A program made the position numbers and the translations under genes. From the NCBI GenBank assembly GCA_028751875.1, contig CM054143.1:69254131-69318130 (forward strand): DNA of 64,000 bases, in the 5' to 3' direction. Of this stretch, positions 749 through 62,514 are shown one piece after another; position 1 is the first letter of the stretch, and the number at the start of each line of letters is the position of its first letter. This stretch comes from Rapana venosa (Eukaryota > Mollusca > Gastropoda > Neogastropoda > Muricidae). The notes beneath the pieces are model-generated. The model made no database searches and had not been told where the DNA came from. It was given only the letters and a program-made list of their open reading frames with translations.

Positions 749-749
749 C

Positions 750-28180: not shown

Positions 28181-28660
28181 TAGTATGCTTTATAGAATTA
28201 TTAACAGTTTTTGAGTTCAATACTAAAACAACATAATGACAAAGAAAGAACAAAAACTATTTGCAAATTTGTTGTTATAGAAATATAAACGGAAGAAAAA
28301 TACAATTACTTTAGTGTGAGATTTAAGTCTAATATCATGAAAGAAAACCAAAAAAAACTGTCATTGTAATAGAAAGTACCATCACGTAATGGAACAATGT
28401 TCTCTATTTTGTATGTACAGTAATCTTTTTCCGATAAAACAGCCAAGCCAAACTTAAGGAAAACTGAATTTAATCTGCACCTTAGAAGAGTTGTTAGGCG
28501 TATACTGAAAACGCATGAATATGTATTGAATTGTTGAGTACTGTGTGTTCCTGTACTATTGTTATATCGTGATGCTTTTCCCAAATCATAAACCTTGCAT
28601 TGTATTGTGGTCCCAAGGCCGATGTACAGATTAAACTATTATTCAAGTTCAGTTCAAGTT
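28181..28660 (+). mobile_element. LINE-like 3' end (family with GTATTGTGG tail), D1
   Basis: The last 65 bases (about 28596-28660) read GCATTGTATTGTGG, CCAAGGCCGATGTACAG, ATTAAACTATTATTCAAG and end in TTCAG/TTCAAG units. This is a compact non-coding terminus of the sort found at non-LTR 3' ends, shared with 61713-61756. The 415 bases upstream are AT-rich and uncoded in the plus direction, so could be its 3' UTR, but I cannot confirm that. The array begins at once after the tail. Confidence 0.6.
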
Positions 28661-29215
28661 CTCTCCGCCCTCTGTCTCTCTGTCTGTCTGTCTGTCTCTC
28701 CCTCCGCCATCAGTCTCTCTCTCTCTCTCTCTTCTCTCTCAATCTCTCTCCTCTCGTCTCCGCCCCCTCTGTCTCTCTCTCTGTGTCACTCTCTCCGCCC
28801 TCATGCCCTCTCTAGCTCTCTCTCACTCTCTCTCCGCCTCTGTCTCTCTGTCTCTCTCTCCGCCCCTCTGTCTCGTCTCTCTCATCTCCGCCCTTCTCTC
28901 TCTCTGTCTCTCTCATCTCCGCCCTCTGTCTCTGTCTCTCTCTCTCCGCCCTCTGTCAGTGTCTGCTGTCTCTTCACCGCTCTCTGTCTTCTCCTTCATC
29001 TCCGCCCACTGTCGTCTCTCACTCACCGCTGTCACTCTCTCTGTACTCTCTCCTCTCCGCCTCTGTCTCTCTCTCTCTCTCTCTCACCCCCCTCTGTCTC
29101 TCTGTCTCTCTCTCTCTCCGCCCTCTGTCTATCTGCGTCTCTCTCTCTCCACTTCTCCGCCTCTCTTCGCGTCTCTCTGTCTCTCTGTCTCACTTTCTCA
29201 TCTCTCTCTCTCTCT
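28661..29215. repeat. Interrupted pyrimidine array, D1 part 1
   Basis: TC dinucleotides interrupted by a recurrent CCGCCCTCTGTC-type element at irregular spacing. Long Ser/Leu frames are read-through. Confidence 0.95.
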
Positions 29216-29350
29216 TATAATTATTACTGATGCATTGCTTTTTGTTATGTTTCTTTTTATTCGAGTTGTTATTGTACTTCTTTTCTTTATTCACCAACCC
29301 CTCAGAAGGGCGGTGGCCTAAACATGAATAAATACCGATTCCGATTCCGA
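29216..29350 (+). mobile_element. LINE-like 3' terminus with ATTCCG tail, D1
   Basis: An island of ordinary sequence ends GGCGGTGGCCTAAACATGAA, TAAATACCG, then repeated ATTCCG units before the pyrimidine array resumes. A short poly-purine-free terminus with a tandem hexamer tail is typical of non-LTR 3' ends. No coding part survives. Confidence 0.6.
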
Positions 29351-29402
29351 ATCTCTCTGTCCCTCACTCGTCACTCTCTCCGCCTTCTGTCTCTCTCTCC
29401 GC

Positions 29403-29433
<31 letters not shown>

Positions 29434-32028
29434 CGTCCTCTGTTCCTCTCCCTCTCATCCGCCCCTCTGTCTCTCTCTCCTCCTCCGCCTCTGTCTCTCT
29501 CCGTCACTCTCCTCTCTCAATCCTCTGTCCTCACCATCACGCCCTCTGTCTCTCTCTCTCTCCGTCCTCTGTCCACTCTCTCTCTCTCTCCGCCCTCTGT
29601 CTCATCTCTCTCTCAGTCCCTCTCTCCCGCCCTCTGTCCCTCTCTCTCGTATCCGCCCTCTGTCTCTCTCTGACTCTCGTCCGGCCTTCTGTCTCTCTCT
29701 CTCTCCGTCCTCTGTCTCCTCCGCCCTCTGTCTCTATGTCCTCTCTCTTTTCCGCCCTCTGTCTCTCTGTCATCTCTCTTTCACCCGCACTATGTCTCTC
29801 TGTTTCTCTCTCTCCTCCTCTGTCCTTCTCTCTCCGCCTCTGTCCTCACTCTCACTCCGCCCTCTGTCACCACTCTCTCCTCTCCGCCCCTGTCTCTCTG
29901 TCTCTCTCTCACTCACGCCCTCTGTCTCTCTCTCTCTCACCGCCCTCTGTCTCTCTGTCTCTCTCTCTCTCCTTCTCCGATTCCACTTCTCTCTGTCTCT
30001 CTCTCTCTACCGTCCTCTGTCGCTCTCTCTCTCCGCCCTCTGTCTTCTCTCTCTCCGCCCTCTGTCTCGTCTCTCATCTCTCCGCCCTCGTCTCTCTGTC
30101 CTCCTCCATCTCACCGCCTCTGTCTTTTCCTCTCTCTCCGCCCTCTGTCTCTCTGTCTCTCCTCTCCTCCGTCCTCATGTCTCTCTCCGTCTCTCCGTCC
30201 TCTCGTCTCTCTCATCTCCGTCCTCTCTCTCTCCTCTCTCTCTCTCTCCGTCTCTGACTCTCTCTCTCCACCCTCGTCTTCCTTCCTCTCTCTCTCTCCC
30301 CCTCTGTTCTGTCCGCTCTCTCTCCGTCCTCTGTATCCACCTCTCTCTCCACTCTCTGACTCTGTCTCTCTCTCTCTCTTCTCTCCGTCCTACTTCTCTC
30401 TCTCTCCCCCTCTGTCTGTCTCTCTCTCTCCGTCCTCTGTCCTCTCTTCTCTATCCGCCCTCTTCTCGCTGTCTCTCTCTTCTCGAACCGTCACTCTGTC
30501 TCTCTGTCTCTGTCTCTTTCCGCCACTGTCTCTCGGTCTCAGTCTCTCTCCGCCCTCTGTCTCTCATCTCTCTCCTCTCTCTCTCTCTCTTCTCTGCTCC
30601 TCTGACTCTCACTCTCATCCGTCATCTAGTCTCTTCACATCTCCGCCCTCAGTCTCTCTCCTCTCAGCCCTCTGTCTCTCCTGCTCTCTCTCTCTCGCGC
30701 CGTCTGTCTCAGTCTCTCTCTCCGCCCTCATGTCTCTCTCTCTCTCTCTCTCCGTCCTCTTGTCCTCATCTGTCTCTCCGTCCTCCTGTCCTCTCTCACT
30801 CTCTCTCCACCCTCTGTCTCTGTCTCTCTCACTCTCTCGCTCCGCCCTCTGTCTCTCTCTCTCTCTCATCTCTCCCCTGCCCTCTGTCTCGCTGTCTCTC
30901 TCCCTCTCTCCGCCTCTGTCTCTCTTCTCTCTCTCTCTACCGCCCTCTGGTCCTCTCTCTCTCTCAATCCGCCTCTGTCTCTCAGTCTCTCTCTCTCTCG
31001 TCCATCTGTCTCTCTTCTCTCTCTCTCGTCACGTCTCTGTCTCTCTTCCTCTCTCTCCGTCCCTCTCTCTCACTTCTCACGCCCTCTTCTCTCTCTTCTC
31101 TCTCTCTCTCTCCTCTCTCTCTCCGTCCTCTGTCTCTTCTCTCTCCACCTCTGTCATCTGTCTCTCTCTCTCTCCGCCCTCTGTCTTGTCTCCTCTCTCT
31201 CCGTCCTCTTGTCACTCACTCTCTCTCCACCCTCTGTCTCTCAATCTCTCTCTCTCTCTCTCCTCTCTTCCTCCTCTGGTCTCTCTCTCTCACCGCCCCT
31301 CTGGTCCTGGTCTCTCTCTCTCCCGTCCTCTGTCTCTCTCTCCTCTCTCTCTCCACCCTCTGTCTCTCTCATCCTCCCTCAGTCACTCTCTCCGTCCTCT
31401 GTCTCTCTCTCTCTCACGCCCACCTGATCTGTCTCTCTCTCGGTCCGCCCTCTTGTCCTCTGTCGCACTCTCTCGCTCCGTCCTCTGTCTCTCTCTCTCT
31501 CCGCCCTCCTTCCTCTCATGGTCTCGTCTCTTTCCGCCCTCTGCTGTCTCTCATTCACTGTCTCTCTCACGCCCTCTGTCTCTCTCATCTTCCGTTCCTC
31601 TGTCTCTCTCTCTCTCTCTCTCTGCCCTCTGTCGCTCCTCTCTCAGTCATCTGTCCCTGTCTCTTCTCTATCTCTCCGCCCTCCTGACGCTCTCTCTCAG
31701 CCTCTGTCTGTCTCTCTCTCCCCGCCCTCTGTCCTCTGTCCACCTCCGACCTCTGTCTCTCTGTCTCTCTCTCTCTCCGTCCCTGTCCTCTCTCTCCTCT
31801 CTCCAACCTCGTCTCTGGCTCTAACTCTCTCTCTCCACCCTCGTGTCCTCTCTATCTCTTCTCCCGCCCTCCTGTCTCTCTGTCCTCTCTCTCTCTCTCC
31901 GCCCGTCTGTCTCTCTTTCTCTCTTTCACTCTCCGCCGCTCTGTCTCTCTCTGTCTCTCTCTCTCCTCCTCCTCTCTCTCTCTCTCTCTCCTCTTCTGTT
32001 TTCTCTCTCTCTTTCCGTCCTCTGTCAC
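29351..32028. repeat. Interrupted pyrimidine array, D1 part 2
   Basis: About 2.7 kb of C and T with recurrent CCGYCCTCTG elements, some as CCACCCTCTG. The 787- and 364-residue frames over it are Ser/Leu/Pro read-through with no protein character. Confidence 0.95.
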
Positions 32029-32578
32029 TTTTAAACAAATTAGATCAAATAAGAAAAAGTTCATACTATGGCTTGCAAAAGATTTTTTAGGTGTAACCAG
32101 TTTAGAACTCCAAAGCAATGGTCTATGGGGAATTTTAGAAGATTTCCTCTTCAATGTTTAATTCGTGTGTTTCGGTCTTAAGGATAGTTTAAGAATATTG
32201 ACAAATGAAGAAATGGAAACTGCCAAATATAGCTTATCAGATTTTATTAGACTTAGACAAAGTGGTAAAGATTGTTGGTGTGGAAAATCAGGGAAATTTT
32301 ATGTAAGACCAGTTTTTAGCTATGTTTGATGCAGCAGGTGTTGGTCAGGGTCAAAGTGATATCTAAGACTATTTAAGCAAGAACCTGGTTATCATACTAC
32401 AAGAATGGTCCTGGCACTATATAGATAACCGTGACAGATATGACAATTACAGAATCTTTTAAAATCATTTTTGAAAAAAAGAAAAGTTACTGTCTGAACA
32501 TGTATAACCTACTGTTTTAGAGTTGCCACATCACAAGCTAGATATAACGTTCTCCTATTAATGCAAATTGTACTCTCC
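32029..32578 (+). mobile_element. Relic of a LINE protein C-terminal domain, D1 copy 1
   Basis: A 550-base island of ordinary, coding-like sequence inside the pyrimidine array. Pieces of frame read VHTMACKRFFRCNQF (from about 32059) and RRFPL, then TNEEMETAKYSLSDFIRLR and KDCWCGKSGKFYVR. The order (a CKRF motif, a G-x-x-G/R-R-F/Y-P-L motif and a W-C-G segment) is what I associate with the post-reverse-transcriptase tail of some animal LINEs. Several frameshifts and stops disable it. A second, roughly 80 percent similar island lies at 34585-35134 and starts and ends at the same points of the protein. The clade is not assigned. Confidence 0.65.
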
Positions 32579-34584: not shown

Positions 34585-35134
34585 GTTTAAACAATTAGAT
34601 CATATAGAAAATGTTCATACTATGTCTTGTAAAAAGATTTTTAGGTGTAACCAGTTAGAACACCAAATCAATGGCTATGGTGATTTAGGAAGATTTCCTC
34701 TTCATGTTAATTCGTGTGTTGCGGCTTACGGTATTTTTAGAATTAAAACAAATGAAGAATGAAAGACTGCCCACCATATTATAGCTTATCAATGTTACGG
34801 GGGAGAATTAGACAAGAAATGGCACAGATTGTTGTGGTGTGGAAAATTCAGGACATTTTATGTAAGACTAGGATTTAGCTTTGTTTGGTTGCAGCAGGGT
34901 GTTTGGTCCAGGGTCAAAGTGTTTTCCAAGACTATTTAAGCAGAGACGGTTGATCTATACATACAAGAATGGTCTGGCACTATCGAGAGACGTGTCAGAT
35001 ATGACAATTAACAGATCTTTTAAAATCATTTTTGAAAAAGAAAGTACGGATACTGACATGGAAACCTACTGTTTTAGAGTCGCCATCTCACAAGCTAGAT
35101 TAATGTTCTCCCTATTAAAGCAAATAGTAACTCT
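34585..35134 (+). mobile_element. Relic of a LINE protein C-terminal domain, D1 copy 2
   Basis: Better preserved than 32029-32578: VHTMSCKKIFRCNQLEHQ, YGDLGRFPLHVNSCVAA and RIKTNEE appear in one frame, followed by a stop (TGA in GAATGAAAG), then AYQCYGGELDKKWHRLLWCG. Frame changes continue to the end at about 35134, where the array resumes. A 464-residue open frame begins at 34881 and includes the tail of the relic before passing into the array; it is not a gene. Confidence 0.7.
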
Positions 35135-36135: not shown

Positions 36136-36320
36136 TTCTTATCCATGTTACTTATCAAATTAGTGTAATCAGGTTCATTGTTTATGTCAACTTTCATTTG
36201 AGAATGATATGTTTATTAACGTATATCTCTTTTCTACAACAACAGCAACAACAATATAATCAATGTATCTCTTGACATTAACGTTCAGGTCAGTTAGGGA
36301 TTATGTATTGTTGAATATAC

Positions 36321-36325
<5 letters not shown>
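36136..36325. other. Non-repetitive island holding all D1/D2 differences
   Basis: AT-richer island with CAACAACAGCAACAAC. Against 52518-52709 it shows about eight substitutions and two single-base insertions within roughly 100 bases (36206-36300), whereas the rest of the duplication looks identical. Confidence 0.85.
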
Positions 36326-36359
<34 letters not shown>

Positions 36360-36742: not shown

Positions 36743-36784
36743 ACAGAGATCATAGACCCCCCCCCAAGTAAAGTGCACCCCTCT

Positions 36785-37140: not shown

Positions 37141-37237
37141 GTATGCATATAGGACATGCCTGTCAGGCTCTCCACTTCTGTCTCTCATCCTCTCTCTCCT
37201 CTGTCTGTCTGCCTGTCTTAAAAAAAAAAAAATTCTT
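37141..37237. other. Short link with TCTG repeats
   Basis: TCTCTCCTCTGTCTGTCTGC followed by an A-run. A diverged version of this link and the SINE start after it recurs at 54880-54995, just outside copy D2. Confidence 0.6.
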
Positions 37238-37510
37238 TTAATTTGGAGATAATGGAATAAGCACTCTTGTGCTTTTTTTTTCATCTATCCCCTGTGTGTA
37301 TGGCAGTTTTGTCAATTTTGTCATCCTTTCCCACCGTCACACAATGGCCTACTCTATCCGAAAAGCGGACGGGACCTCGGTTTATAGTCTCAATCATCCG
37401 AAGGACTGTTGGGGAGAGGAGGGGTGTCTGCTCAATGTTAACCACCAGAGGAAAACACCTCTCGCACGAGAATCAACTCCCGGTCAGTACAGATCACGAA
37501 ATACATCATC
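37238..37510 (-). mobile_element. SINE-A, degraded, D1
   Basis: The plus strand shows GGAGATAATGGAATAAGCAC, CCCCTGTGTGTATGGC, CCGAAAAGCGGACGGGACC (an internal deletion relative to other copies), CCGAAGGACTGTTGGGGAG and a damaged B-box near 37470-37485. Repeated at 53622-53894. Confidence 0.8.
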
Positions 37511-37584
37511 TCCCCTCTGTCTCTCTCCTCTTATCCTATCGTCTCTCTGGTCTCAACGTATTTTTATTTCATTAATATATTTTA

Positions 37585-37682
37585 TAATTAATTTTATCTT
37601 TTATTCGAGATGAGTGGAATAAGCACATATGTGGGAGTTGGCACTGATGTTAACTCCAAGACAAATCCTCTCGAACGTATGT
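37585..37682 (-). mobile_element. SINE-A, internally deleted fragment, D1
   Basis: TTATTCGAGATGAGTGGAAT, AAGCACATATGTG, then a jump to GCACTGATGTTAACTCCAAG. The middle of the SINE is missing. Repeated at 53969-54066. Confidence 0.7.
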
Positions 37683-38437: not shown

Positions 38438-38819
38438 ACACAAACTTTATCTCTTATTGATGCATGAATAAATATCTATGACAGCAGTGAATTTTTGCCA
38501 CTGTTTTCTCTTATAAGAGATCATGCAAAGAGTTATCACACAATCCCTTAAAATTTAATTCGTTAAATCATTAAACACAAAACATCATACAGTAAATGCT
38601 TTCACATCTTCAATTTTGGGTTTACAAAATGGACATTTTTTCTTCTGATTCTGTGCACTATATCGAAGTACATTGTTTGTTGAGTGTAAAACATGACATT
38701 CTCACCGTGACACTAAACAAAGCTACTACTAAAGCAGTAGGTACTAAGTGTAAGAAGAATTTCTTCTTAACAAATATTGTTTTGAAACACCTGTAACTAT
38801 CGTATCTGTCCTCGGGAGC
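38438..38819. other. Unassigned unique stretch
   Basis: AT-rich, non-repetitive DNA with one 66-residue frame (38596-38796) that I do not recognise. No element ends are seen. Confidence 0.5.
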
Positions 38820-38832
38820 GAGACGAAGAGAG

Positions 38833-38882
<50 letters not shown>

Positions 38883-39386
38883 TGTGAGAGAGAGAGTGTG
38901 TGAGAGAGAGATGTGGGGGTAGTGAGAAGAGGGAAGATAGAAAGGACAGAGAGAGAGGGAGAGAGAAAGAGAGAGAGGGAGAGGAGTGTGAGAGAGAGAA
39001 AAAGAGGGGAGAGAGAGAGAGTGTGAAGAGAGAGAGAGTTAAAAGCAAAGAGAGAGAAGAGGGAGAGAGAGAAAAGTAGAGAGAGTGTGTGTGAGAGAGA
39101 GAAGGGGGGGGAGATAGAAGTAAGAGAGAGAGAGTGTGTGTGAGAGAGATGAAAAGAGTGAGAGAGAGAGTGGAGAGAGAGGAGGGGAGAGAGAGAAAAT
39201 GGAGATAGAAGAGGGAGAGAGAGAAAGGTAGAGAGAGAGAGGAAGGGAGAAGAGAGAGAGAGAAAGAGGGAGAGAGAGAAGGGGAGAAAGAGTGAGAGAG
39301 AGTGAAGAGATAGATAGAGAGAGAGAGAGTGAGATAGGAGATAGTGAAGAGAGAGTGAGATAGAGAGAGAGTGCGATAGAGAGTTT
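38820..39386. repeat. GA array, 3' of a minus-strand LINE
   Basis: GAGAGAGA with GTGTGTGAGAGAG and GAAGAGGGAG forms. On the minus strand it reads as a TC array that begins within about 10 bases of the end of the LINE coding relic at 39390. Confidence 0.95.
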
Positions 39387-41580: not shown

Positions 41581-44276
41581 TCCCTGTCTCTGTCTCTCTG
41601 TCCTTGTCTCTAGTCGTCTCTGTGTGTCTGTCTCTATGTCCTCTGTCTCTCTATCCGCTGCTTTCTTTCTTTCTTCTCTGCGTCTGTGTGTTGTGTGTGT
41701 GTGTGTGTGTGTGTGTGTTGTGTGTGTGTCCCTATCTCCCCCCCCCCCCCCAAACTCTCCTCTCTTCTTCTCACGGTGTCCCATCTGATGTTTCGTCTCT
41801 GTCTCTCTCCTCCCTCACCCCCCCCCCCCTCCTCTCTCCACTCTCTCTCTCTCTCTCTCTCCGCCCTCTGTCTTTCTCCTCTCTCTCCCCCCTCTATCTC
41901 TCTCTCTCCCCTTCTCTCTTCTCTCTCCGCCCTCTGTCTCTCTCTCATCCCTCTCTCTCCGCCCTCTGTCTCTCTGTCTCTCTCTCTCTCTCTCCTCCGC
42001 CCATCTGTCTCTCTGTGTCTCTTCCATCTCTCTCCGCCTCTGTCTCTCTGTCTCTCTCTCTCCCTCTGTCTCTCTCCTCCGCCTCTCTGTCTGTCTCATC
42101 CTCTCCGCTCTCTTCTCTCTGTCTCTAACTCATCTCAAGCTCCGCCCTCTGTCGTCTCACTCTCTCTCTCTACGAATCTCCTCTCTCTCTCTCTCCTCTC
42201 TCTCTCTCTCCCTCTCTCTTTTCCCCCTCTGTCTCTCTCTTCCCCGCCCTCTGTCTCTCTGTTCTCTATCTCATCTCCGCCATCTGTCTCTCTGTCTCTG
42301 TCTCTCTCCTTCGTTCCCCCTCGTGTCTGATCTCTCTCTCCACCCTCTGTCCTCTCTGTCTGTTCCTCTCTCATCCACCCTCTGTCCACTCTGCTGTCTG
42401 TCTCTCTCTCCACCCCTCATGACACTATGTCGTCTCTCTCTCTCTCTCCCCTCTGTCGCTCATCTCTCTCTCTCTCTCCTCTCCTCCCTCTGTCTGTCTG
42501 TCCTCTCTCTCTCTCCGCCCTCTTTCTTTCTTTCTGTCTCCTCTGACCCTCTCTCGTCTCTCTCCCTTCTGTCACTCTGTCTGTCTCTCCCACCCGCCCC
42601 TCTGTCTCCCTCTGTCTCTCTCCTCTCCTCTCTCTCTCTCCTCTCTCAACTCATCATCTCTCTCTCTCACGCCCTCTGTCTCTCTCTCTCCGCCTCTGTC
42701 CTCTCTGTCTCTCTCTCACTCCACCGCCCTTTGCTCTCTCTCTCTCTCTCATCGTCTCAAGTCATCTCACTCATCTCTCCTCTCTCTCCGAGCCCTCAGT
42801 CTCTCCTGTCTCTCTCCTCTCTCCGCCCACTGTCTCTCTGTCTCTCTCTCTCTCTCTCTCCGCCCTCTGTCTCTCTCTCGCCTTCCCGCCCTCTGTCCTC
42901 TCTCTCTCTTCAACTCTTATCTCTCTCCCTCCGCCCTCTGTCTCTCTGTCTCTCTCCGCCCTCTGTCTCTCTGTCTCTGTGTCTCTCCTTCTCCGCCCTC
43001 TGTCTCTGTCTCACTCGCCGGTCTCTGTCTCTCTCCTCTCTGGGTCCCCCTCTGTCTATCTCTCTAGTCTCTCTCTCTCTCTACGCCCTCTGTCTGTCTG
43101 TCTGTTCTCTCTCTCTCTACGCCCTCTGTCTGTCTCTCTGTCTCCCTCTCCGCCCGTCTGTCTCTCTGTCTCTCTTCCTCCCGCCCTCTGTACTCTCTCT
43201 CTCTCTCCGCCCTCTGTCTCTCTGCTCTCTCTCTCCGCCACTCTGTCTCTCTGTCTCTCTCTCTCCGCCTTCTGTCTGTCTGTCTGTCTCTCCTCTCTCC
43301 TATCTCTCCACCCTGTCTCTCGTCCCTCATCTCATCCTCCGCCCTCTATCTTCTCGGTCCTCTCTCTCTTCCCCCTGTCTCTCTCTCTCTACCGCCCTCA
43401 TGTCTCTTCTCTGTCTCTCTCTCTCCCGCCCTCTTCTCTCTGTCTCTCTCTCCTCCGCCCTCGTGTCTCTCTGTCCTCTGTCTCTCTCTCTCCGCCACTC
43501 TGTCTCTTTGTATCTCTCTCTCTCCGCACTCGTGTCTCTCTCATCACCCCCGTCCTCTGTCTCTCTCTCTCTCTGTCTCCTCTCTCTCTCTCTCCTCTCC
43601 GCCCTCTGTCCTCTCTCTCTCTCTCCTCCCTCTGTCTCTCTGTCCTCTCTCTTTCCGCCCTCTTCTCTCTCTCTCTCTCTCTCTCATCTCTCTCTCCGTC
43701 CTCTGTCTCTCCTGTCTCTCTCTCCCACCTCTCTGTCTCCTCTGTCTCTCTCCTCTCCCCCTCTGTCTCTCTCTTGTCTCTCTCAGCTCCGCCCTCTGTC
43801 TCATCTCTCCGCCTCTGTCTCTCTGTCTCTCTCTCTCATCATCCCGCCCCTGTCCCTCTCTCTCTCTCCCCTCTGTCCTCTCTCTCGTTCCGCCTCTGTC
43901 CTCTCTCCTCTCGTCTGCCCCTCTGTCCTCTCTCTGTCCTCTCTCTCCGCCCTCTGTCTCTGTCTCTGTCATCTCTCTCTCTCCCCCTCAGTCTCTCTCT
44001 CGTCGCTCCGCCCGCCTCTCTCTCTGTCTCTCTCTCCGCCCTCTGTCTCTGTCATCTGTCTCTCTTTCTCTCTCACGCCCTCTACTCTCTCTCTGTCATC
44101 TCTCCTCCTCTGGCCCTCAGTCTCGTCTCTCTCTGTCTCTCTCTCTCGTCTCTCTCTCTCTCCTCCGAGCCCGATCTCTCCTCTGTCTCGCTCTCTGTCT
44201 CTTCCCTCTCTCCTCGTTCGTCTTCTCCCTCTCATCATCTTCTCTCTCTCTCTCCTCTTCTCTCTCCGCCCTCTAG
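41580..44276. repeat. Interrupted pyrimidine array between D1 and D2
   Basis: About 2.7 kb of the same CCGCCCTCTGTC-studded TC type as in the duplication, with a GT run at 41687-41729 and C-runs near 41740 and 41817. It contains no LINE island. The 676-residue frame is read-through. Confidence 0.95.
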
Positions 44277-44562
44277 CAAACACCTCAATAGAAAATTGCC
44301 GAGCTAATTGGTTGTGTAATTATTGGTTTATCAACATGATATCTGTGTCGTGATAACTACTCAAACTAACTATAAAATGTACTTTACACATGTTTTCTCA
44401 TAGTCTAGTAGATGCATTTGGTTTGACTATGAGTTTAAAGTACTCTTTGTGTGTGTGTGTTTTTGTGGTGAGTGTGTGTGTGGTTTTGTTATTTGTTTCT
44501 CACTTTCCTTTATTTTGAAACAAAAGCTTGGTGGCTCCAGTATGCAGCAAACTTGCAGGGAA
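44277..44562. other. Unassigned stretch with GT repeats
   Basis: AT-rich DNA with GT-rich patches at 44448-44485, ending at the left edge of D2. Nothing is recognised. Confidence 0.5.
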
Positions 44563-45042
44563 TAGTATGCTTTATAGAATTATTAACAGTTTTTGAGTTC
44601 AATACTAAAACAACATAATGACAAAGAAAGAACAAAAACTATTTGCAAATTTGTTGTTATAGAAATATAAACGGAAGAAAAATACAATTACTTTAGTGTG
44701 AGATTTAAGTCTAATATCATGAAAGAAAACCAAAAAAAACTGTCATTGTAATAGAAAGTACCATCACGTAATGGAACAATGTTCTCTATTTTGTATGTAC
44801 AGTAATCTTTTTCCGATAAAACAGCCAAGCCAAACTTAAGGAAAACTGAATTTAATCTGCACCTTAGAAGAGTTGTTAGGCGTATACTGAAAACGCATGA
44901 ATATGTATTGAATTGTTGAGTACTGTGTGTTCCTGTACTATTGTTATATCGTGATGCTTTTCCCAAATCATAAACCTTGCATTGTATTGTGGTCCCAAGG
45001 CCGATGTACAGATTAAACTATTATTCAAGTTCAGTTCAAGTT
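44563..45042 (+). mobile_element. LINE-like 3' end, D2
   Basis: Copy of 28181-28660 with the same tail (44978-45042) abutting the array. Confidence 0.6.
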
Positions 45043-45597
45043 CTCTCCGCCCTCTGTCTCTCTGTCTGTCTGTCTGTCTCTCCCTCCGCCATCAGTCTCT
45101 CTCTCTCTCTCTCTTCTCTCTCAATCTCTCTCCTCTCGTCTCCGCCCCCTCTGTCTCTCTCTCTGTGTCACTCTCTCCGCCCTCATGCCCTCTCTAGCTC
45201 TCTCTCACTCTCTCTCCGCCTCTGTCTCTCTGTCTCTCTCTCCGCCCCTCTGTCTCGTCTCTCTCATCTCCGCCCTTCTCTCTCTCTGTCTCTCTCATCT
45301 CCGCCCTCTGTCTCTGTCTCTCTCTCTCCGCCCTCTGTCAGTGTCTGCTGTCTCTTCACCGCTCTCTGTCTTCTCCTTCATCTCCGCCCACTGTCGTCTC
45401 TCACTCACCGCTGTCACTCTCTCTGTACTCTCTCCTCTCCGCCTCTGTCTCTCTCTCTCTCTCTCTCACCCCCCTCTGTCTCTCTGTCTCTCTCTCTCTC
45501 CGCCCTCTGTCTATCTGCGTCTCTCTCTCTCCACTTCTCCGCCTCTCTTCGCGTCTCTCTGTCTCTCTGTCTCACTTTCTCATCTCTCTCTCTCTCT

Positions 45598-45732
45598 TAT
45601 AATTATTACTGATGCATTGCTTTTTGTTATGTTTCTTTTTATTCGAGTTGTTATTGTACTTCTTTTCTTTATTCACCAACCCCTCAGAAGGGCGGTGGCC
45701 TAAACATGAATAAATACCGATTCCGATTCCGA
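45598..45732 (+). mobile_element. LINE-like 3' terminus with ATTCCG tail, D2
   Basis: Copy of 29216-29350. Confidence 0.6.
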
Positions 45733-45784
45733 ATCTCTCTGTCCCTCACTCGTCACTCTCTCCGCCTTCTGTCTCTCTCTCCGC

Positions 45785-45815
<31 letters not shown>

Positions 45816-48410
45816 CGTCCTCTGTTCCTCTCCCTCTCATCCGCCCCTCTGTCTCTCTCTCCTCCTCCGCCTCTGTCTCTCTCCGTCACTCTCCTCTCTC
45901 AATCCTCTGTCCTCACCATCACGCCCTCTGTCTCTCTCTCTCTCCGTCCTCTGTCCACTCTCTCTCTCTCTCCGCCCTCTGTCTCATCTCTCTCTCAGTC
46001 CCTCTCTCCCGCCCTCTGTCCCTCTCTCTCGTATCCGCCCTCTGTCTCTCTCTGACTCTCGTCCGGCCTTCTGTCTCTCTCTCTCTCCGTCCTCTGTCTC
46101 CTCCGCCCTCTGTCTCTATGTCCTCTCTCTTTTCCGCCCTCTGTCTCTCTGTCATCTCTCTTTCACCCGCACTATGTCTCTCTGTTTCTCTCTCTCCTCC
46201 TCTGTCCTTCTCTCTCCGCCTCTGTCCTCACTCTCACTCCGCCCTCTGTCACCACTCTCTCCTCTCCGCCCCTGTCTCTCTGTCTCTCTCTCACTCACGC
46301 CCTCTGTCTCTCTCTCTCTCACCGCCCTCTGTCTCTCTGTCTCTCTCTCTCTCCTTCTCCGATTCCACTTCTCTCTGTCTCTCTCTCTCTACCGTCCTCT
46401 GTCGCTCTCTCTCTCCGCCCTCTGTCTTCTCTCTCTCCGCCCTCTGTCTCGTCTCTCATCTCTCCGCCCTCGTCTCTCTGTCCTCCTCCATCTCACCGCC
46501 TCTGTCTTTTCCTCTCTCTCCGCCCTCTGTCTCTCTGTCTCTCCTCTCCTCCGTCCTCATGTCTCTCTCCGTCTCTCCGTCCTCTCGTCTCTCTCATCTC
46601 CGTCCTCTCTCTCTCCTCTCTCTCTCTCTCCGTCTCTGACTCTCTCTCTCCACCCTCGTCTTCCTTCCTCTCTCTCTCTCCCCCTCTGTTCTGTCCGCTC
46701 TCTCTCCGTCCTCTGTATCCACCTCTCTCTCCACTCTCTGACTCTGTCTCTCTCTCTCTCTTCTCTCCGTCCTACTTCTCTCTCTCTCCCCCTCTGTCTG
46801 TCTCTCTCTCTCCGTCCTCTGTCCTCTCTTCTCTATCCGCCCTCTTCTCGCTGTCTCTCTCTTCTCGAACCGTCACTCTGTCTCTCTGTCTCTGTCTCTT
46901 TCCGCCACTGTCTCTCGGTCTCAGTCTCTCTCCGCCCTCTGTCTCTCATCTCTCTCCTCTCTCTCTCTCTCTTCTCTGCTCCTCTGACTCTCACTCTCAT
47001 CCGTCATCTAGTCTCTTCACATCTCCGCCCTCAGTCTCTCTCCTCTCAGCCCTCTGTCTCTCCTGCTCTCTCTCTCTCGCGCCGTCTGTCTCAGTCTCTC
47101 TCTCCGCCCTCATGTCTCTCTCTCTCTCTCTCTCCGTCCTCTTGTCCTCATCTGTCTCTCCGTCCTCCTGTCCTCTCTCACTCTCTCTCCACCCTCTGTC
47201 TCTGTCTCTCTCACTCTCTCGCTCCGCCCTCTGTCTCTCTCTCTCTCTCATCTCTCCCCTGCCCTCTGTCTCGCTGTCTCTCTCCCTCTCTCCGCCTCTG
47301 TCTCTCTTCTCTCTCTCTCTACCGCCCTCTGGTCCTCTCTCTCTCTCAATCCGCCTCTGTCTCTCAGTCTCTCTCTCTCTCGTCCATCTGTCTCTCTTCT
47401 CTCTCTCTCGTCACGTCTCTGTCTCTCTTCCTCTCTCTCCGTCCCTCTCTCTCACTTCTCACGCCCTCTTCTCTCTCTTCTCTCTCTCTCTCTCCTCTCT
47501 CTCTCCGTCCTCTGTCTCTTCTCTCTCCACCTCTGTCATCTGTCTCTCTCTCTCTCCGCCCTCTGTCTTGTCTCCTCTCTCTCCGTCCTCTTGTCACTCA
47601 CTCTCTCTCCACCCTCTGTCTCTCAATCTCTCTCTCTCTCTCTCCTCTCTTCCTCCTCTGGTCTCTCTCTCTCACCGCCCCTCTGGTCCTGGTCTCTCTC
47701 TCTCCCGTCCTCTGTCTCTCTCTCCTCTCTCTCTCCACCCTCTGTCTCTCTCATCCTCCCTCAGTCACTCTCTCCGTCCTCTGTCTCTCTCTCTCTCACG
47801 CCCACCTGATCTGTCTCTCTCTCGGTCCGCCCTCTTGTCCTCTGTCGCACTCTCTCGCTCCGTCCTCTGTCTCTCTCTCTCTCCGCCCTCCTTCCTCTCA
47901 TGGTCTCGTCTCTTTCCGCCCTCTGCTGTCTCTCATTCACTGTCTCTCTCACGCCCTCTGTCTCTCTCATCTTCCGTTCCTCTGTCTCTCTCTCTCTCTC
48001 TCTCTGCCCTCTGTCGCTCCTCTCTCAGTCATCTGTCCCTGTCTCTTCTCTATCTCTCCGCCCTCCTGACGCTCTCTCTCAGCCTCTGTCTGTCTCTCTC
48101 TCCCCGCCCTCTGTCCTCTGTCCACCTCCGACCTCTGTCTCTCTGTCTCTCTCTCTCTCCGTCCCTGTCCTCTCTCTCCTCTCTCCAACCTCGTCTCTGG
48201 CTCTAACTCTCTCTCTCCACCCTCGTGTCCTCTCTATCTCTTCTCCCGCCCTCCTGTCTCTCTGTCCTCTCTCTCTCTCTCCGCCCGTCTGTCTCTCTTT
48301 CTCTCTTTCACTCTCCGCCGCTCTGTCTCTCTCTGTCTCTCTCTCTCCTCCTCCTCTCTCTCTCTCTCTCTCCTCTTCTGTTTTCTCTCTCTCTTTCCGT
48401 CCTCTGTCAC

Positions 48411-48960
48411 TTTTAAACAAATTAGATCAAATAAGAAAAAGTTCATACTATGGCTTGCAAAAGATTTTTTAGGTGTAACCAGTTTAGAACTCCAAAGCAA
48501 TGGTCTATGGGGAATTTTAGAAGATTTCCTCTTCAATGTTTAATTCGTGTGTTTCGGTCTTAAGGATAGTTTAAGAATATTGACAAATGAAGAAATGGAA
48601 ACTGCCAAATATAGCTTATCAGATTTTATTAGACTTAGACAAAGTGGTAAAGATTGTTGGTGTGGAAAATCAGGGAAATTTTATGTAAGACCAGTTTTTA
48701 GCTATGTTTGATGCAGCAGGTGTTGGTCAGGGTCAAAGTGATATCTAAGACTATTTAAGCAAGAACCTGGTTATCATACTACAAGAATGGTCCTGGCACT
48801 ATATAGATAACCGTGACAGATATGACAATTACAGAATCTTTTAAAATCATTTTTGAAAAAAAGAAAAGTTACTGTCTGAACATGTATAACCTACTGTTTT
48901 AGAGTTGCCACATCACAAGCTAGATATAACGTTCTCCTATTAATGCAAATTGTACTCTCC
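48411..48960 (+). mobile_element. LINE C-terminal domain relic, D2 copy 1
   Basis: Copy of 32029-32578, with the same frameshifts and stops. Confidence 0.65.
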
Positions 48961-50966
48961 TAATCTCTCCGTCCTCTGTCTCTCTGTCTCTCACTCCGTC
49001 CCTCTGTTTCTCTGTCTCTCTTCAATCCGTCCTCTGTCGCTCATCTCATCTCTCCGTCCTCTGACCTCTCTGCTCTATCTCCGTGCCTCTGTCTCTCCTG
49101 TCTCCCTTCCGTCCTCTGTCCTCTCTCTCTCCCGCCCTCTGTCTCTCTCTCTCTCGCCCTCTGTCTCTCTGTCTCTGTCTCTCGCCGTCTTTACTCACTG
49201 TCTCACTCTCATCCGCCCACGTCCTCTACTCTCCGCCCTCTGTCTCTCTCTCCGCCCACTGTCTCACTCTCACCGCTCTGTCTTCTCTCTCTCCCGCTCT
49301 GTCTCTCTGTCTCTCTCCTCTCGCCCTCTGTCTCTCTCTCTCCTCTCTCCCGCCGGTCTTACTCTCTGTCTCTCTCTCCGCCCTTTTTCTCTCTGTCTCT
49401 CCTCGTCTCTCACGCCCTCTGTCCTCTCTGTCTCTCTCTCTCACTCCGCCCTCTGTCTCTCTCTCCGTCCTTTGTCTCTCTCTCTCCTCTCTCCGTCCTC
49501 TGTCTCATCTCTCTCCTCTTCCTCCACCCTCTTGACCTCTCTGTCCTCTGGCTCTCTCCCCGCTCTGTCACTTCTGTCTCTCTCTCTCCGTCCTCGTCTC
49601 TCTCTCCTCTCTCCGCTCTGTTTCCCCCTGTCTCTCTCTCCGACCTATGACTCTCTTCTCTGTCTCTGTCCGCCCTCTGTATCGTGTCTCTTCCGTCCCT
49701 GTCTCTCTCTCTATCCGTCCTCATGTCATCTCTCTCTCTCCTCGGCATTCCGTCATCTGTCTCTCTCTCTCTCTCTCTTCCTTCTCTCTCTCTCCGCCCT
49801 CTGTCTCTCTCTCTCTCAATCAGTTATCTGTCTCTCGTCCTCGTCTCTTCTCTGCCCTCTGTCTCTCTCTCTCTCTCTCCCGTCCATCTCTCTCTCTTCT
49901 TTCACTCTCTCTCCGCGCTCTGTCCTCGCTCTCTTCAGGCCCTCGTGTCCCTCTCTGTCTTTCCTCGCTCCCGCCCTCTGTCTCTCTCTCTCTCTCTCCC
50001 GCCCTCTGTTCTGTCTCTCTCTCTCTCTCCGCCCTCTTGTCGCACTGTCCCCTCTCCTTCTGCCCTCCTGTCTCTCCTCTTCTCTCAATTCCGCCATCTG
50101 TCTCTCTGCCTCTGTCTCTCGTCTCTCTCTTTCTCTCACCCCACCTTCCTCCTCTAACTATCACTCTAATATAAAACAACATCTCTAAATATCTCTCAAG
50201 TCCTCTCTCTCTTCCTTCTTTTCCTCGTGACTCTGTCCCCTCTCTCAATCCGCCCTCATCTGTCTCTCTCTCCGCCCCTGTCCCTCCTCTCTCTCTCTCC
50301 GCCCGCTCTCTCTCTCTCGCCCTCCTCTCTCTCTCTCTAATCTCCTAATCCTCTCTCTCCGTGCTCTTCCTCTCTCTTCAATCACTCCGACCCTCATTCC
50401 TCTCTCTCTCTCTCTTCTCTCACTCACCGTCCTCTGTCTCTCTCTCTCTTCCACCCTCTGTCTCTCTGTCCTCCGTGTCCGACTCTCCGCCCTCTGTCTC
50501 TCTTCTCTCTCTCTCCGCCCGCTGTCTCTCATCTCGTATCCGCCCTCTCCTGTACTCACTCAGAATCCGCCCTCTGTCTCTGTCTGTCACTCTCTCCGCC
50601 CTCTGTCTCTCTGTCTCTGTACTCTCATCCGCCCTCTGGCTCTTTCACTAACTATTCCGTCCTCTGTCTCTCTCTCTCTCTATCCGTCCTCTGGTCGCTC
50701 CTCTCTGCCCTCTTTCTCTCTCTCTCTCTTCTCTCTCTCTCCATTCACCGTCCATCGGTCTTTCTGTCCTTCTGTCCTCACTCTCTCTCTACTCTCTCTC
50801 TCTTCCTTCTCTCTCTCTCTTCCGCCCTCCTTCTCTCTCTCTCTCTCTCTCTTCTCCGCCCTCTACCTGTCTGTCCTTCTGTCCTGACTCTCGTCTCTCT
50901 CCGTCTCTCTCATCCCTCGACTCTCTCTCCTCTCTCTCAATCTCTCTCCTCCGTCCTCTGTCCTCT

Positions 50967-51516
50967 GTTTAAACAATTAGATCATATAGAAAATGTTCAT
51001 ACTATGTCTTGTAAAAAGATTTTTAGGTGTAACCAGTTAGAACACCAAATCAATGGCTATGGTGATTTAGGAAGATTTCCTCTTCATGTTAATTCGTGTG
51101 TTGCGGCTTACGGTATTTTTAGAATTAAAACAAATGAAGAATGAAAGACTGCCCACCATATTATAGCTTATCAATGTTACGGGGGAGAATTAGACAAGAA
51201 ATGGCACAGATTGTTGTGGTGTGGAAAATTCAGGACATTTTATGTAAGACTAGGATTTAGCTTTGTTTGGTTGCAGCAGGGTGTTTGGTCCAGGGTCAAA
51301 GTGTTTTCCAAGACTATTTAAGCAGAGACGGTTGATCTATACATACAAGAATGGTCTGGCACTATCGAGAGACGTGTCAGATATGACAATTAACAGATCT
51401 TTTAAAATCATTTTTGAAAAAGAAAGTACGGATACTGACATGGAAACCTACTGTTTTAGAGTCGCCATCTCACAAGCTAGATTAATGTTCTCCCTATTAA
51501 AGCAAATAGTAACTCT
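50967..51516 (+). mobile_element. LINE C-terminal domain relic, D2 copy 2
   Basis: Copy of 34585-35134, including the same internal stop. Confidence 0.7.
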
Positions 51517-52704
51517 CTCCGTCCCCTCTGTCTCTCTCACATCTCTCTCTCTTCCGTCCCTCTGTCTACTGTCTCTCTCTCCTTCCCTCTGTCCTCACAT
51601 CTCCGTCCCTCTTTCTCTCTCCTCCATCCCCACTCGTCCTCTCTCCATCATCTCACCTCTCCGTCCTCTGTCTCTCTCTCGCCTCCTCTGTCTCTTGTCT
51701 CCCTCTCCGTCGTCTCGTCTCTCTGTCTCTCTTCTCCGTCAGTCTGTCCTCTGTCTCACTGTCTCTCTGTCTCTCTCTCTCTCGTCTCTCTCTCTCTCTC
51801 GTCTTCTCTCGTCTCCTCCCTCTGACTCTTCTCCTTGCGGTCCTACGTCTCTCTCGTCTCTCCGCCCTCCTGTACCTCTCTCTCCGCCCCTCTGTCTCCT
51901 CCGCTCTCTCCGCCCTTGTTCTCGTCTCTCTCCGCCTCTGTCTCATCCCCCCTTGTTCCCCCCCCTCTGTCCTCTCCGCCTCTTACTCACTGTCCTCTCT
52001 CTCCGCCTCTGTCTCACACACTATCCTTGCCGCCCCGCTGTCTCCACTCTCACCGACTCTGTCTCTCTCTCATCCCGTCCTCTGTCTCTCTGTCTCACTC
52101 TCTCCGCCATCGTGTCTCTCTCACTCGTCCTCTGTCTCTCTGTCTCTCTCCTCTCTCTCCCTCTGTCTCTCTCTCTCCCGCCCTCAGTCCTCTCTCTCTC
52201 TCCTACGGCCCCTCTGTCTCTCTGTATCTCTACTCTTCTCTTCTCCCCCTCTTACTCTGTCTCTCTCATCCGCCGTCTTACTCTCTGTCTCTCACACTCC
52301 GCCCTCGTCTCTGTCTCACTCTCCGCCGTCTACTCTCTGTCTCTCTCTCCGCCCCTCTGTCTCTGTCTCTCTTGTCTCTGTCTCTCTGTCTCTCTCTCTC
52401 TCTCTGTCTCTCTCCTCTCTCTCTTTCTGTCTGTCTCTCCTCTCTCACTCTCTCTCCTCATCTCATCCTCCCATCTCTCATCTCTCTCTCTCTTGCATCT
52501 TGCGTCTCCCTCTATTTTTCTTATCCATGTTACTTATCAAATTAGTGTAATCAGGTTCATTGTTTATGTCAACTTTCATTTGAGAATGATAAGTTAATAA
52601 ACGTATATCTCCTTTTCTACAACAACGGCAACAACAATATAATCAATTAATCTCTTGACCTTAACGTTCAGGTCAGATTAGGGATTATGTATTGTTGAAT
52701 ATAC

Positions 52705-52743
<39 letters not shown>

Positions 52744-53168
52744 CCCCCCTCTCTCTCTCCCTCATTCTCCCCTCTCTTTTCTCGTCGTTCAGTCTTCTGC
52801 CTCTCTGTCTGTCACTTTTGTTCTCAATCTCTCTCAACCGTCTTTCGTCAGACCTGTCTGTTCTGTCTGTTTGTCTGTCTTTCTGTCTGTCTGTCATGTC
52901 TGTCTCTCTCTCTCTCTCTCTCTCAAGAAAAATCTCTCTCTCTCTCGTCGTCCACTGTCTGCTCTCTGTCTGCCTCTCTGTCTGCCTCTCTGTCTGTGCC
53001 TCCCACCCCCACCCCCCCCCACCCCCCCCCCCCCCCCCCCCCCTCCCCCATGCCCCCCCCCCTCCCCCCCCCACCCCCTCCTCCCGCACCCCCCCCCCCC
53101 CCCCCACCCTCCCCCCCCCCCCCTAGACAGAGATCATAGACCCCCCCCCAAGTAAAGTGCACCCCTCT

Positions 53169-53524
53169 CTCCCGCCAAAAGCCCTTCTTATGACACTTTA
53201 AAATCCAGTCTCAAGACTTATTTTATTTCAAACCTAAGACATTCGCTCTGCTTCATCTCATATATTTCCCTGCCATTCAACAACCAGATTCTATCGCCTG
53301 CCAGGGTGGGTGTCCTTGTGTGGGTGTGTGTGAGTGTGTGTGCGTGCGCGTGCGTGCAACATTTGGACTTGATGGAACCTATTAATTGTTTTACAGGTTA
53401 TGACTGTGTAGAGAATGTGTAGTTGGAGTGCAAGCTCTTTGAATTGTCTCTTGCAAGATATAGCGCTATATAAAATTTTCATTTATTGATATTATTAATA
53501 TTATTATTATAATTATTATTATCT
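53169..53524 (+). mobile_element. L2/CR1-like LINE 3' end, D2
   Basis: Copy of 36785-37140. Confidence 0.85.
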
Positions 53525-53621
53525 GTATGCATATAGGACATGCCTGTCAGGCTCTCCACTTCTGTCTCTCATCCTCTCTCTCCTCTGTCTGTCTGCCTGT
53601 CTTAAAAAAAAAAAAATTCTT

Positions 53622-53894
53622 TTAATTTGGAGATAATGGAATAAGCACTCTTGTGCTTTTTTTTTCATCTATCCCCTGTGTGTATGGCAGTTTTGTCAAT
53701 TTTGTCATCCTTTCCCACCGTCACACAATGGCCTACTCTATCCGAAAAGCGGACGGGACCTCGGTTTATAGTCTCAATCATCCGAAGGACTGTTGGGGAG
53801 AGGAGGGGTGTCTGCTCAATGTTAACCACCAGAGGAAAACACCTCTCGCACGAGAATCAACTCCCGGTCAGTACAGATCACGAAATACATCATC
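53622..53894 (-). mobile_element. SINE-A, degraded, D2
   Basis: Copy of 37238-37510. A smaller internally deleted SINE-A piece follows at 53969-54066. Confidence 0.8.
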
Positions 53895-54803
53895 TCCCCT
53901 CTGTCTCTCTCCTCTTATCCTATCGTCTCTCTGGTCTCAACGTATTTTTATTTCATTAATATATTTTATAATTAATTTTATCTTTTATTCGAGATGAGTG
54001 GAATAAGCACATATGTGGGAGTTGGCACTGATGTTAACTCCAAGACAAATCCTCTCGAACGTATGTATTTATGTATGTTTGTAATGTATGTTATGTATGT
54101 ATGATATTGTATGTAGTATGTATGTAAGTAAGTATGTATGTAGTATGCTTACTGTCTCTTTCTCTCTGTCACCTCTCCGTGTCAGGTCTGTCTTTCTGTC
54201 TGTCTCTCTCTCTCTCCCTCCTCCCTCTCTCTCTCTCATCCCACCTCCTCTCTCTCTCTCCCCTCCTTCTCATCTACCCCTCCCTCCCTCCCTCTCACCC
54301 TCCTCTCTCTCTCTCTCCTCCTCCCAATCTCCCACCTCTCTCTCTAGCCTCTCTCTTTCCTCCCCTCTCTCCCACTCTCCCTCCCTCTGCTCTCCTCTCT
54401 CTCTCCCTCTCTCTCCTCACTCCCTCCACTCCATCCCTCTCTCCCCCTCTCCTCTCCCGAACCTCTCTCTTTCCCTCCCTCACATCTCTCCCCTCCTCAC
54501 TCTCTCCCCTATCTCTTTCCTTCTCTCTGTCCCTCCTTCCACTCTCTCCCTCCCTCTGTCACCTCTCCATCCCTCTCGTCACTCTCCCCCGCTCTCTGTC
54601 CCTCCTCCCTCCCTCCCCTCCCTCTTTCTCGCTCCCTCCCTCTTTCTCCCTCTCCCTCCCTCTTACTCTCTCGCCACTCCCACTTTCTCTCTCCCACTCC
54701 CTCTCTCTCTCTCTCTCCTCCTCTCCGCTCTCTCTCTCCTCCCTCTCTGTCCCTCCTCTTCTCTCTCCCTCCCTCTCTCTCTCCATCTCCCGCTCTTCCC
54801 CCT

Positions 54804-56224: not shown

Positions 56225-56375
56225 TCTGTCTCCCTCTCTCTCTCCCCCCTCTCTCCCCCCCTCCTCTCTCCCCCTCTCTCCCCCTCTCTCTCCCCCCCTC
56301 TCTCTCCCCCTCTCTCCCCCTCTCTCTCTCCCCCCCTCTCTCTCTCCCTCTCCCTCTCTCCCTCTCTCTCTCTTC
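56225..56375. repeat. TC/CCCTC array
   Basis: About 150 bases of C and T, starting at the truncated end of the minus-strand LINE. Here the pyrimidines lie on the strand opposite to the LINE's sense strand. Confidence 0.9.
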
Positions 56376-56391
56376 ACATGATATTTCCCTA

Positions 56392-56482
56392 ATAAGGGCA
56401 CGGACTGGATGTAAAAAAAACAACACCCCACAAAAGTTCAGAAATACTTATTCATTATCCCAACAATAAAGAATTTGATTTT
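56392..56482 (+). mobile_element. SINE-A 3' tail fragment
   Basis: CTAATAAGGGCACGGACTGG, ATGTAAAAAAAAC, TTATTCATTATCCC and AATAAAGAATTTG match the SINE-A 3' end. TCTG and TC repeats follow (56490-56562). Confidence 0.75.
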
Positions 56483-58704: not shown

Positions 58705-59068
58705 GACGGGATAGCCTGGTGGTTAGAACATTGCGCTCGCAATCTGACGACCCGGGTTCGATTCCGGTTCAAGGGGATATTTTCCCCTGGAGTTAACATC
58801 AGTGCAGACTCCACTCTCCCCAAAAGTCTTTCGGATGAGACTATAAACCGAGGCCCCGTGTGCGAACGCACGCAGAACATCTTGCGCGCACGTTAAATCC
58901 TGTTCCGCTTTTCGTTAGAGTAGGCCATTGTGTGCGGTGGGAACAGATGACAGAACTTACAAAACCGCATACACTCGGGGACTTGATGTGTGGTTTTTTT
59001 AAAGAGCACAGAAGTGCTTATTCCATTATCCTCGATATAAAAGAATTAAATAGATAAATAAATAAATA
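58705..59068 (+). mobile_element. SINE-A, full length, ending in a pyrimidine array
   Basis: A-box-like TAGCCTGGTGGTTAGAAC (58712-58729), B-box GGTTCGATTCC (58755-58765) and core TTTCGGATGAGACTATAAAC (58829-58850). Then CACGTTAAATCCTGTTCCGC, CGGGGACTTGATG and CCATTATCCTCGATATAAAA follow, and an AAAT/AGAT tail to 59068. The tail passes directly into a TCCC-rich array. Confidence 0.93.
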
Positions 59069-59483: not shown

Positions 59484-59612
59484 CAGATGGGTGGCGCTGC
59501 TCTTGTGGCGACGCGCTCTCCCCGGGGAGAGCAGCCCGAATTTCACGCAGAGAAATCTCGTGACTTTAAGTGGTATAATATAAAATATCAAAAAATAATA
59601 AAATAAATAGAT
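59484..59612 (+). mobile_element. SINE-B 3' domain alone
   Basis: GGGTGGCGCTGCTCTTGTGG, CGACGCGCTCTCC, the perfect palindrome CTCTCCCCGGGGAGAG and CAGCCCGAATTTCACGCAG match 26867-26955 almost base for base, then an AAT/AAAT tail. No tRNA head or core precedes it, so it is 5'-truncated or mobilised as part of another element. Confidence 0.85.
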
Positions 59613-60922: not shown

Positions 60923-60924
<2 letters not shown>

Positions 60925-61272: not shown

Positions 61273-61689
61273 CACACACACACACACATCTAACAGCCAA
61301 ACACAGAGCAACACACTCTGCTGCCATCAGGGCAAAGGTGAACTCATCCTCATCCAGACAATTATATCTATCCAGATACATAGTCCATTCCAGGAATAGA
61401 AGGAAGACATCGTTGTGTCACAATGTGACTTAATGGATACCTGTGTCACATAAGCTATGTCTCTACAAAGATGGTTTCTATCAACCTGAATTGAACTATG
61501 ACATTTTGATTTACACCGATGTTGATGTATGCTGTTAGCAATATTCAGGCAGTCTAATAGCAGTTTATCCAGTTCATAGTCCAAGACTTGATCAGTGCGG
61601 TCATGATTCACTTGAATGGTTGTTGGTTTGTTTACTTGTTTTCTTTTCTTCCATATACTATGGTACTGTATATACCAGTATGTTGATTC
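61273..61689. other. CA run and unassigned stretch
   Basis: A CA run (61272-61288), then mixed-complexity DNA. A 134-residue minus-strand frame (61327-61731) is of ordinary composition but overlaps the LINE tail and matches nothing I know. Confidence 0.45.
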
Positions 61690-61767
61690 CCCTCCTTCCC
61701 CCAAACTCCGTGTATTGTGGCCTAAGGCCAATGTACATATTAAACACGTTCACAGTTCAGAGTTCTG
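61690..61767 (+). mobile_element. LINE-like 3' terminus (GTATTGTGG family)
   Basis: GTGTATTGTGGCCTAAGGCC, AATGTACATATTAAACACG and TTCACAGTTCAGAG correspond to 28598-28660. The pyrimidine array starts immediately after. Confidence 0.65.
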
Positions 61768-61776
61768 TCTCTCTCA

Positions 61777-61875
<99 letters not shown>

Positions 61876-62514
61876 CTCTCTCTCTGTGAGTTTCTCTCTC
61901 TCTCTCAGTCTCTCTCTCTCTCTCAGTTTCTCTCTCTCAGTTTCTCTCTCTCTCTCAGTTTCTCTCTCTCAGTTTCTCTCTCTCTCTCAGTTTCTCTCTC
62001 TCAGTTTCTCTCTCTCTCAGTTTCTCTCTCTCTCTCAGTTTCTCTCTCTCTCAGTTTCTCTCTCTCTCTCTCTCTCCCTCTCTCTGTTTCTCTCTCTGTT
62101 TCTCTCTCTGTTTCTCTCTCTCTCTGTGTTTCTCTCTCAGTTTCTCTCTCTCTCTCAGTTTCTCTCTCAGTTTTCTCTCTCTCTCTCTCAGTTTCTCTCT
62201 CTCTCTTACTCTCTCAGTTTCTCTCTCTCTCTCTCTCTCTCCAGTTCTTTCTCTCTGAGTTTCTCTCTCACTCTCTCTCTCTCACTCTCTTTCTTCTCTC
62301 TCTGTTTCTCTCTCTCTCTGAGTTTCTCTCTCTCTCTGTTTCTCTCTCTCTGAGTTTCTCTCTATCTCTGTTTTCTCTCTCTCTCTCAGTTTCTTTCTCT
62401 CTCATTTTCTCTCTCACTCCTCTCTCTCCCTCTCGGTTTCTCTCTCTCTCTGTTTCTCTCTCTATGAGTCTCTCTCTCTCTCTGTTTCTCTCTCGGCTTC
62501 TCTCTTCTCTCCCT
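61768..62514. repeat. TC array with CAGTTTC breaks
   Basis: About 750 bases of TC interrupted at fairly regular intervals by CAGTTTC or GTTTC (unit about 16-22 bases). The break motif differs from the CCGYCCTCTG of the D1/D2 arrays and resembles that of 750-1600. Confidence 0.95.

Follow-up and report, generated by a model that had tools for sequence, protein, structure and literature searches.

Probable insertion of retrotransposons into TC microsatellites in one orientation in Rapana venosa

Introduction

Long polypyrimidine and polypurine arrays take up a large part of the locus studied here, a 64-kb stretch of a 2.28-Gb Rapana venosa assembly that was analysed as a whole (the window): pyrimidine and purine segments cover 14,958 and 9,644 bp, respectively, or ~24.6 kb of the 64 kb. 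Several retroelements end at or near such arrays, which raises the question of whether the elements bring the arrays along or insert where arrays already stand. An initial annotation of the window had listed ten junctions at which the 3' end of an element ran into a TC-type array on its own sense strand, and had named expansion from the tail, a TC-rich 3' UTR and preferred insertion beside TC tracts as possible explanations.

Junctions in the window

Pyrimidine arrays do begin within 20 bases of the junctions listed, but these are not ten independent 3' termini. First, self-comparison of the window showed that 28181-38419 recurs at 44563..54803 (10,241 bp, 99.9% identity; features are on the plus strand unless stated otherwise), so one set of events had been counted twice. 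The pair is either a recent tandem duplication or an assembly artefact. One edge of the duplicate block falls inside a LINE, the second copy, at 28181..28660, of LINE-1b, an element with a tail related to that of LINE-1. Second, two relics that had been taken for LINE 3' termini, at 32029..32578 and 34585..35134, match positions 58-559 and 45-558 of the 1150-position LINE-1 profile. They are internal LINE-1-like coding fragments that end within the coding region, ~590 bp before the LINE 3' end, with TC on both sides. Since the array segments holding them are 74% alike and the fragments themselves are alike, the two relics amount to one event and to no 3' terminus. Third, the element ending near 748, read as a copy of the short element SINE-A, matches SINE-A only over positions 270-331 of the SINE-A profile, and its relatives in the genome carry (ATTGTC)n tails; it belongs to a separate family, here called family B. 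Lastly, an array reading TC on the minus strand (38825..39385) is indeed present beside the minus-strand element at 39386; a LINE-1-like internal fragment beyond the array (38585..38811, minus strand, profile 433-650 of 1150) has sense-strand TC on its 5' side and none on its 3' side. For the element at 39386, a Pfam search of ORFs 40132-40392 and 41113-41451 returned no families.

TC repeats 3' of LINE-1, family B and SINE-A

The LINE that ends at 61.7 kb, LINE-1, is represented in the window by a 3' part at 61288..61767 (profile 668-1149 of 1150) whose tail, ...TTAAACACGTTCACAGTTCAGAGTTC, is followed by a TC array. An anchor from the end of this LINE, AAGGCC[AG]ATGTACA[GT]ATTAAAC, has 269 exact copies genome-wide, compared to 0 for the reversed control. 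The tail consists of (GTTCAGA)n or of GTTCAGC repeats and closes in GTTC, after which TC begins. TCTCTCTC, that is (TC)4, was found 5-35 bp 3' of 103 of 131 anchors in a genome-wide count confined to the forward strand; the reverse-strand search scored several ends per anchor, and a hand count on the reverse strand of C1-C4 gave TC at 37 of 43 distinct anchors.

Sampled copies gave the same picture. Within 60 bp 3' of 40 LINE-1 copies, (TC)4 was present in 34, (TC)3 in 37 and (GA)4 in a single copy (L024), which has TC there as well. The three copies lacking (TC)3 in this interval are one whose flank is N (L082) and two with TG-rich flanks (L039 and L073). By chance, 3.3% of random 60-bp stretches contain (TC)4 and 3.5% contain (GA)4 (220 kb of genome, 20,000 draws), or 2.5% and 2.8% without the two loci adjoining the window. 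Set against this rate, the 34 of 40 copies bear out for LINE-1 the 3' enrichment over random positions expected of a genuine association. The long arrays that had drawn attention are present in the window, but their length is a property of the locus: in most of 20 sampled LINE-1 copies the TC run stops within 200 bases, and by eye it runs on in L026, L030, L031 and L036.

Family B shows a similar association. In the window it is found at 100..749, with TC at 18-99 on its 5' side and at 754-1585 on its 3' side, and a family-B-like 3' end at 56376..56482 is flanked by TC at 56229-56375 (5') and from 56483 onward (3'). The family B anchor, AAATAAAAGAATTTGTCATTGTC, has 10,884 exact copies genome-wide (control, 0), and the tail is (ATTGTC)n. 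Its 3' flank contains (TC)4 in 11 of 20 copies and (GA)4 in none. Among the nine copies without (TC)4, inspected by eye, TATC-type arrays follow three (L101, L102 and L106), and the target may accordingly be wider than pure TC, extending to (TATC)n-type arrays; one flank is TCC-rich (L095) and five copies have neither array type (L089, L092, L093, L094 and L099).

SINE-A behaves differently. It is ~345 bp long with an (AAAT)n-like tail and a head that looks tRNA-derived by eye, and a 36-bp word from its core occurs in 14,722 exact copies across the genome. In the 70 bp 3' of 20 anchored ends, which come from 19 of the 20 loci fetched (two ends from L053, none from L065), neither (TC)4 (0/20) nor (GA)4 (0/20) was found; in a random 220 kb, TC lies 3' of 3 of 24 copies and GA of 0 of 24. 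The difference in 3' TC from SINE-A is significant both for LINE-1 (Fisher test, p 5e-11) and for family B (11/20 vs 0/20, p 1.5e-4, with the family B and SINE-A samples drawn from one contig). In the window, a SINE-A copy at 58709..59067 has a TC array 3' (98% pyrimidine) and none 5', the minus-strand copy at 37231..37498, duplicated at 53615-53882, has sense-strand GA on its 3' side, and most window SINE-A rows have no TC 3'. The fixed polarity first proposed for all these elements therefore stands for LINE-1 and family B and fails for SINE-A, which shows no 3' enrichment and was rejected as a family bearing the rule.

Other SINE-A observations concern its 5' side and its presence within arrays. 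Upstream, 5 of the 20 anchored copies (L049, L050, L055, L059 and L066) have (TC)4 within 70 bp, and 0 of 20 have (GA)4 there; in the random sample, the corresponding counts are 3/24 for TC and 1/24 for GA. Some truncated SINE-A copies also lie inside TC arrays, with TC on both sides, for example at L013:2501-2724 and L002:3997-4229.

TC repeats 5' of truncated copies and array units

If the arrays were there first, TC would also be expected where a truncated element begins. We located 5' ends by profile in the 20 LINE-1 copies whose profile match ends within the fetched DNA, and found sense-strand (TC)4 at most 45 bp upstream in 16 of them and (GA)4 in none. On reading the four exceptions (L036, L039, L081 and L085), LINE-like sequence goes on past the profile match. 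Three longer copies, L043, L044 and L046, also start in TC, and the sequence upstream of a fourth (L045) is N. Among truncated family B copies inspected by eye, TC lies 5' of L091, L093, L096, L098 and L105, and is missing from L089. In the window, TC of the same polarity flanks both sides of 100-749, 29217-29350, 44281-45043, 56376-56482 and 62516-63735. A comparison of TC frequency 3' and 5' of the elements had been suggested as a way to refute the association; insertion into a TC target should leave TC on either side of a truncated copy, and that comparison therefore misfires as a refutation.

The composition of the arrays points the same way. LINE-1b, which occupies 44281..45043 and has a related tail (AAGGCCGATGTACAGATTAAAC ... 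AGTTCAAGTTC), lies between arrays built on the same unit, CCGCCCTCTGTC, at 20.2 per kb on the 5' side (41800..44280) and 19.4 per kb on the 3' side. The element at 62516..63735, one ORF of which was searched and matched 0 Pfam families, lies between arrays that have the CAGTTTCTC unit in common, at 20.1 per kb in 61768..62515 and 10.3 per kb in 63736..63930. Each of the two units scores 0 in the array pair of the other insert. A unit shared across one insert and differing between inserts indicates that the array belongs to the site. The CCGCCCTCTGTC unit also makes up the arrays at 28661..29216 and 29351..32028 (25.8 per kb in the latter), on either side of a short insert with an (ATTCCG)n tail (29217..29350). 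There are exceptions: the 5' flank of the LINE-1 copy at 61288..61767 is a CA repeat plus SINE-A, with no TC, and the arrays around 56376-56482 look mutually different.

Single arrays also hold two or three elements, inserted in the same orientation. Three LINE-1 copies lie within one array at L031, and LINE-1 and family B share an array in the same orientation at L040 and at L085. In a scan of 198 arrays for tails, an (ATTGTC)-type tail was found 5' of the array 8 times and 3' of it 0 times, though two of the eight cases (L004 and L011) look like chance. Because the target is a dinucleotide repeat, target-site duplications would be invisible.

Taken together, we consider LINE-1 to be a non-LTR retrotransposon that favours pre-existing (TC)n and inserts in one orientation, and family B to do likewise, less strictly, with a probability of about 0.86; the arrays behind both would then be mostly landing sites and not element cargo. 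Preferred insertion beside TC, the third of the explanations originally offered, is thus upheld for these two families by the TC at 5' truncation points, the common units and the arrays with several elements.

Another way to obtain such junctions would be for elements to seed short TC stretches at their 3' ends that later grow into arrays. This has been proposed for RTE elements in Lepidoptera (PMC2887409), and the tails described here are themselves variable tandem repeats closing in TC. We nevertheless think it unlikely: it is disfavoured by TC of the same polarity at 5' truncation points, by a unit that differs among copies of related tails and yet is identical across one insert (in two inserts), and by the presence of two to three elements in one array. 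Still less probable is a mere coincidence of density, by which any element in a window so rich in pyrimidine and purine tracts would adjoin one. The sheer extent of these tracts and the duplicates among the listed junctions speak for it, but for LINE-1 and family B it is refuted by the genome-wide anchors and sampled copies, LINE-1 elsewhere in the genome having TC at 34/40 against 3.3% by chance and SINE-A at 0/20; for SINE-A and the element at 39386, coincidence is a likely reading. Least probable of all is read-through, in which the transcript carries the TC array along as a TC-rich 3' UTR or by transduction, since it accounts for fixed-polarity TC after the tail and leaves unexplained both the TC 5' of truncated copies and the variation of the array unit among copies.

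Possible mechanism of insertion

Insertion of LINE-1 and family B into existing TC tracts would most likely proceed by target-primed reverse transcription (TPRT), as summarised in PMC3747384. If the GA strand were nicked within a TC tract, the break would provide a 3' primer ending in ...GAGA. The 3' tail of the RNA (...GUUC or ...GUC) may anneal there and be copied from this primer; both tails end in TC, and could pair with the primer end. The cDNA, frequently 5'-truncated, would then be joined to the remaining TC tract, and the outcome would be a copy with sense-strand TC on both sides. The long arrays of the window would represent large landing sites, presumably grown by their own tandem expansion and by regional duplication.

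What sets the target is a further question. SINE/LINE pairs with a common 3' end have been described (PMC3747384), and SINE-A and family B resemble them in sharing a 3' stem of ~62 bp (SINE-A profile 270-331). They differ from such pairs in that their tails, (AAAT)n and (ATTGTC)n, and their TC targeting are not the same, and in that the family B copies sampled yielded no coding part. Family B may thus be a LINE, or else a non-autonomous element. A common stem combined with another tail, and TC at 11/20 vs 0/20, suggests that the tail contributes to target choice. The stronger proposition, that the tail and not the endonuclease alone sets the target, with RNAs that terminate in ...(U)UC or ...GUC going to TC and SINE-A, with its (AAAT)n tail, not, is possible but rather doubtful, and SINE-A may simply use another LINE. 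If the tail did set the target, the two families would form a natural tail-swap experiment, and TC arrays would be a common landing zone for families. With thousands of copies available, a comparison of family B and SINE-A would make it possible to measure what part the RNA tail plays in selecting the target.

Identity of LINE-1 and relation to known elements

The coding part of LINE-1 beside its 3' UTR is the C-terminus of a reverse transcriptase; it matches zf-RVT at E 9e-4, below the Pfam curated cut-off. With an E-value limit of 0.001, a search with this C-terminus returned 159 relatives, and RVT_1 is present in some among the matches listed (120 of 159). P0087, one of these relatives, aligns to 48% of the query at 48% identity and matches the structures of R2 (2e-15) and L1 ORF2p (2e-12). 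The reverse transcriptase expected of a non-LTR element is therefore recognised in LINE-1 through sub-threshold zf-RVT and relatives, and the other hallmarks of such elements, namely frequent 5' truncation, a 3' end that stays constant and a short tail of repeats, are all present. Its own RT core was not recovered from the sampled copies, and the copies recovered included neither a full-length LINE-1 nor an endonuclease.

LINEs that target microsatellites are already known, and the insertion described here would be of that kind. Kibi, a Tx1-group LINE of fish, was reportedly described by Kojima and Fujiwara in 2004 as specific for TC microsatellites. LINE-1 is like Kibi in being a non-LTR element within (TC)n in fixed orientation, and it has the features of a Kibi-like element, with insertion within (TC)n, TC on both flanks and fixed polarity; host and tails differ, the likeness being one of target. 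Other LINEs that target microsatellites are the NeSL-related, (TG)n-specific Togen and the microsatellite-specific families of HERO (PMC4640811). Togen and HERO resemble LINE-1 in having a microsatellite as target, and Togen differs in its (TG)n target and fish host. In the lepidopteran RTE elements, LINE 3' ends likewise adjoin simple repeats; according to PMC2887409 the simple sequence repeat is part of the element's own 3' UTR, whereas the array of LINE-1 also precedes truncated copies. In molluscs, L1-Tx1 elements belong to the most ubiquitous types of LINE (PMC10294476), and a possible Kibi-like origin of LINE-1 would fit this. A search of the open-licence literature turned up no mollusc LINE described as targeting TC, which is not proof of absence.

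Such insertion would account in part for the long, interrupted TC arrays in the genome, and two families whose tails differ would then have a microsatellite target in common and enter it in a single orientation.

Duplications and further repeats

Several additional duplications were seen in and around the window. L001:1593-5000, from the upstream neighbour, is identical to window 7965-11372, in the purine-array region (3,408 bp, 100% identity), and is another duplicated block, perhaps of assembly origin; L001:733-1511 matches window 27235-27941 at 91-95%. Collinear copies at 75-78% identity pair 6-6545 with 14337-20186 (75-77%) and 13273-13842 with 21586-22147. These reflect either an old duplication or an uncorrected long-read haplotype or noisy assembly. 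Among the window ORFs searched against Pfam, the sole match was a sub-threshold RNase_H in one of ten; this match, at 22652-23266, is weak (E 0.0017, below cut-off) and has simple repeats inside.

Outside the window, three different elements lie in one long CAGTTTCTC array at L013:1-2900, all in the same orientation, and among them is a further family whose tail is of the (ATTGTC) type. Within the window, another SINE-like repeat occurs at 26553-26963 and 59487-59584; by eye its head is tRNA-like, and its 3' domain, GGTGGCGCTG...GAGAAATCTG, is conserved.
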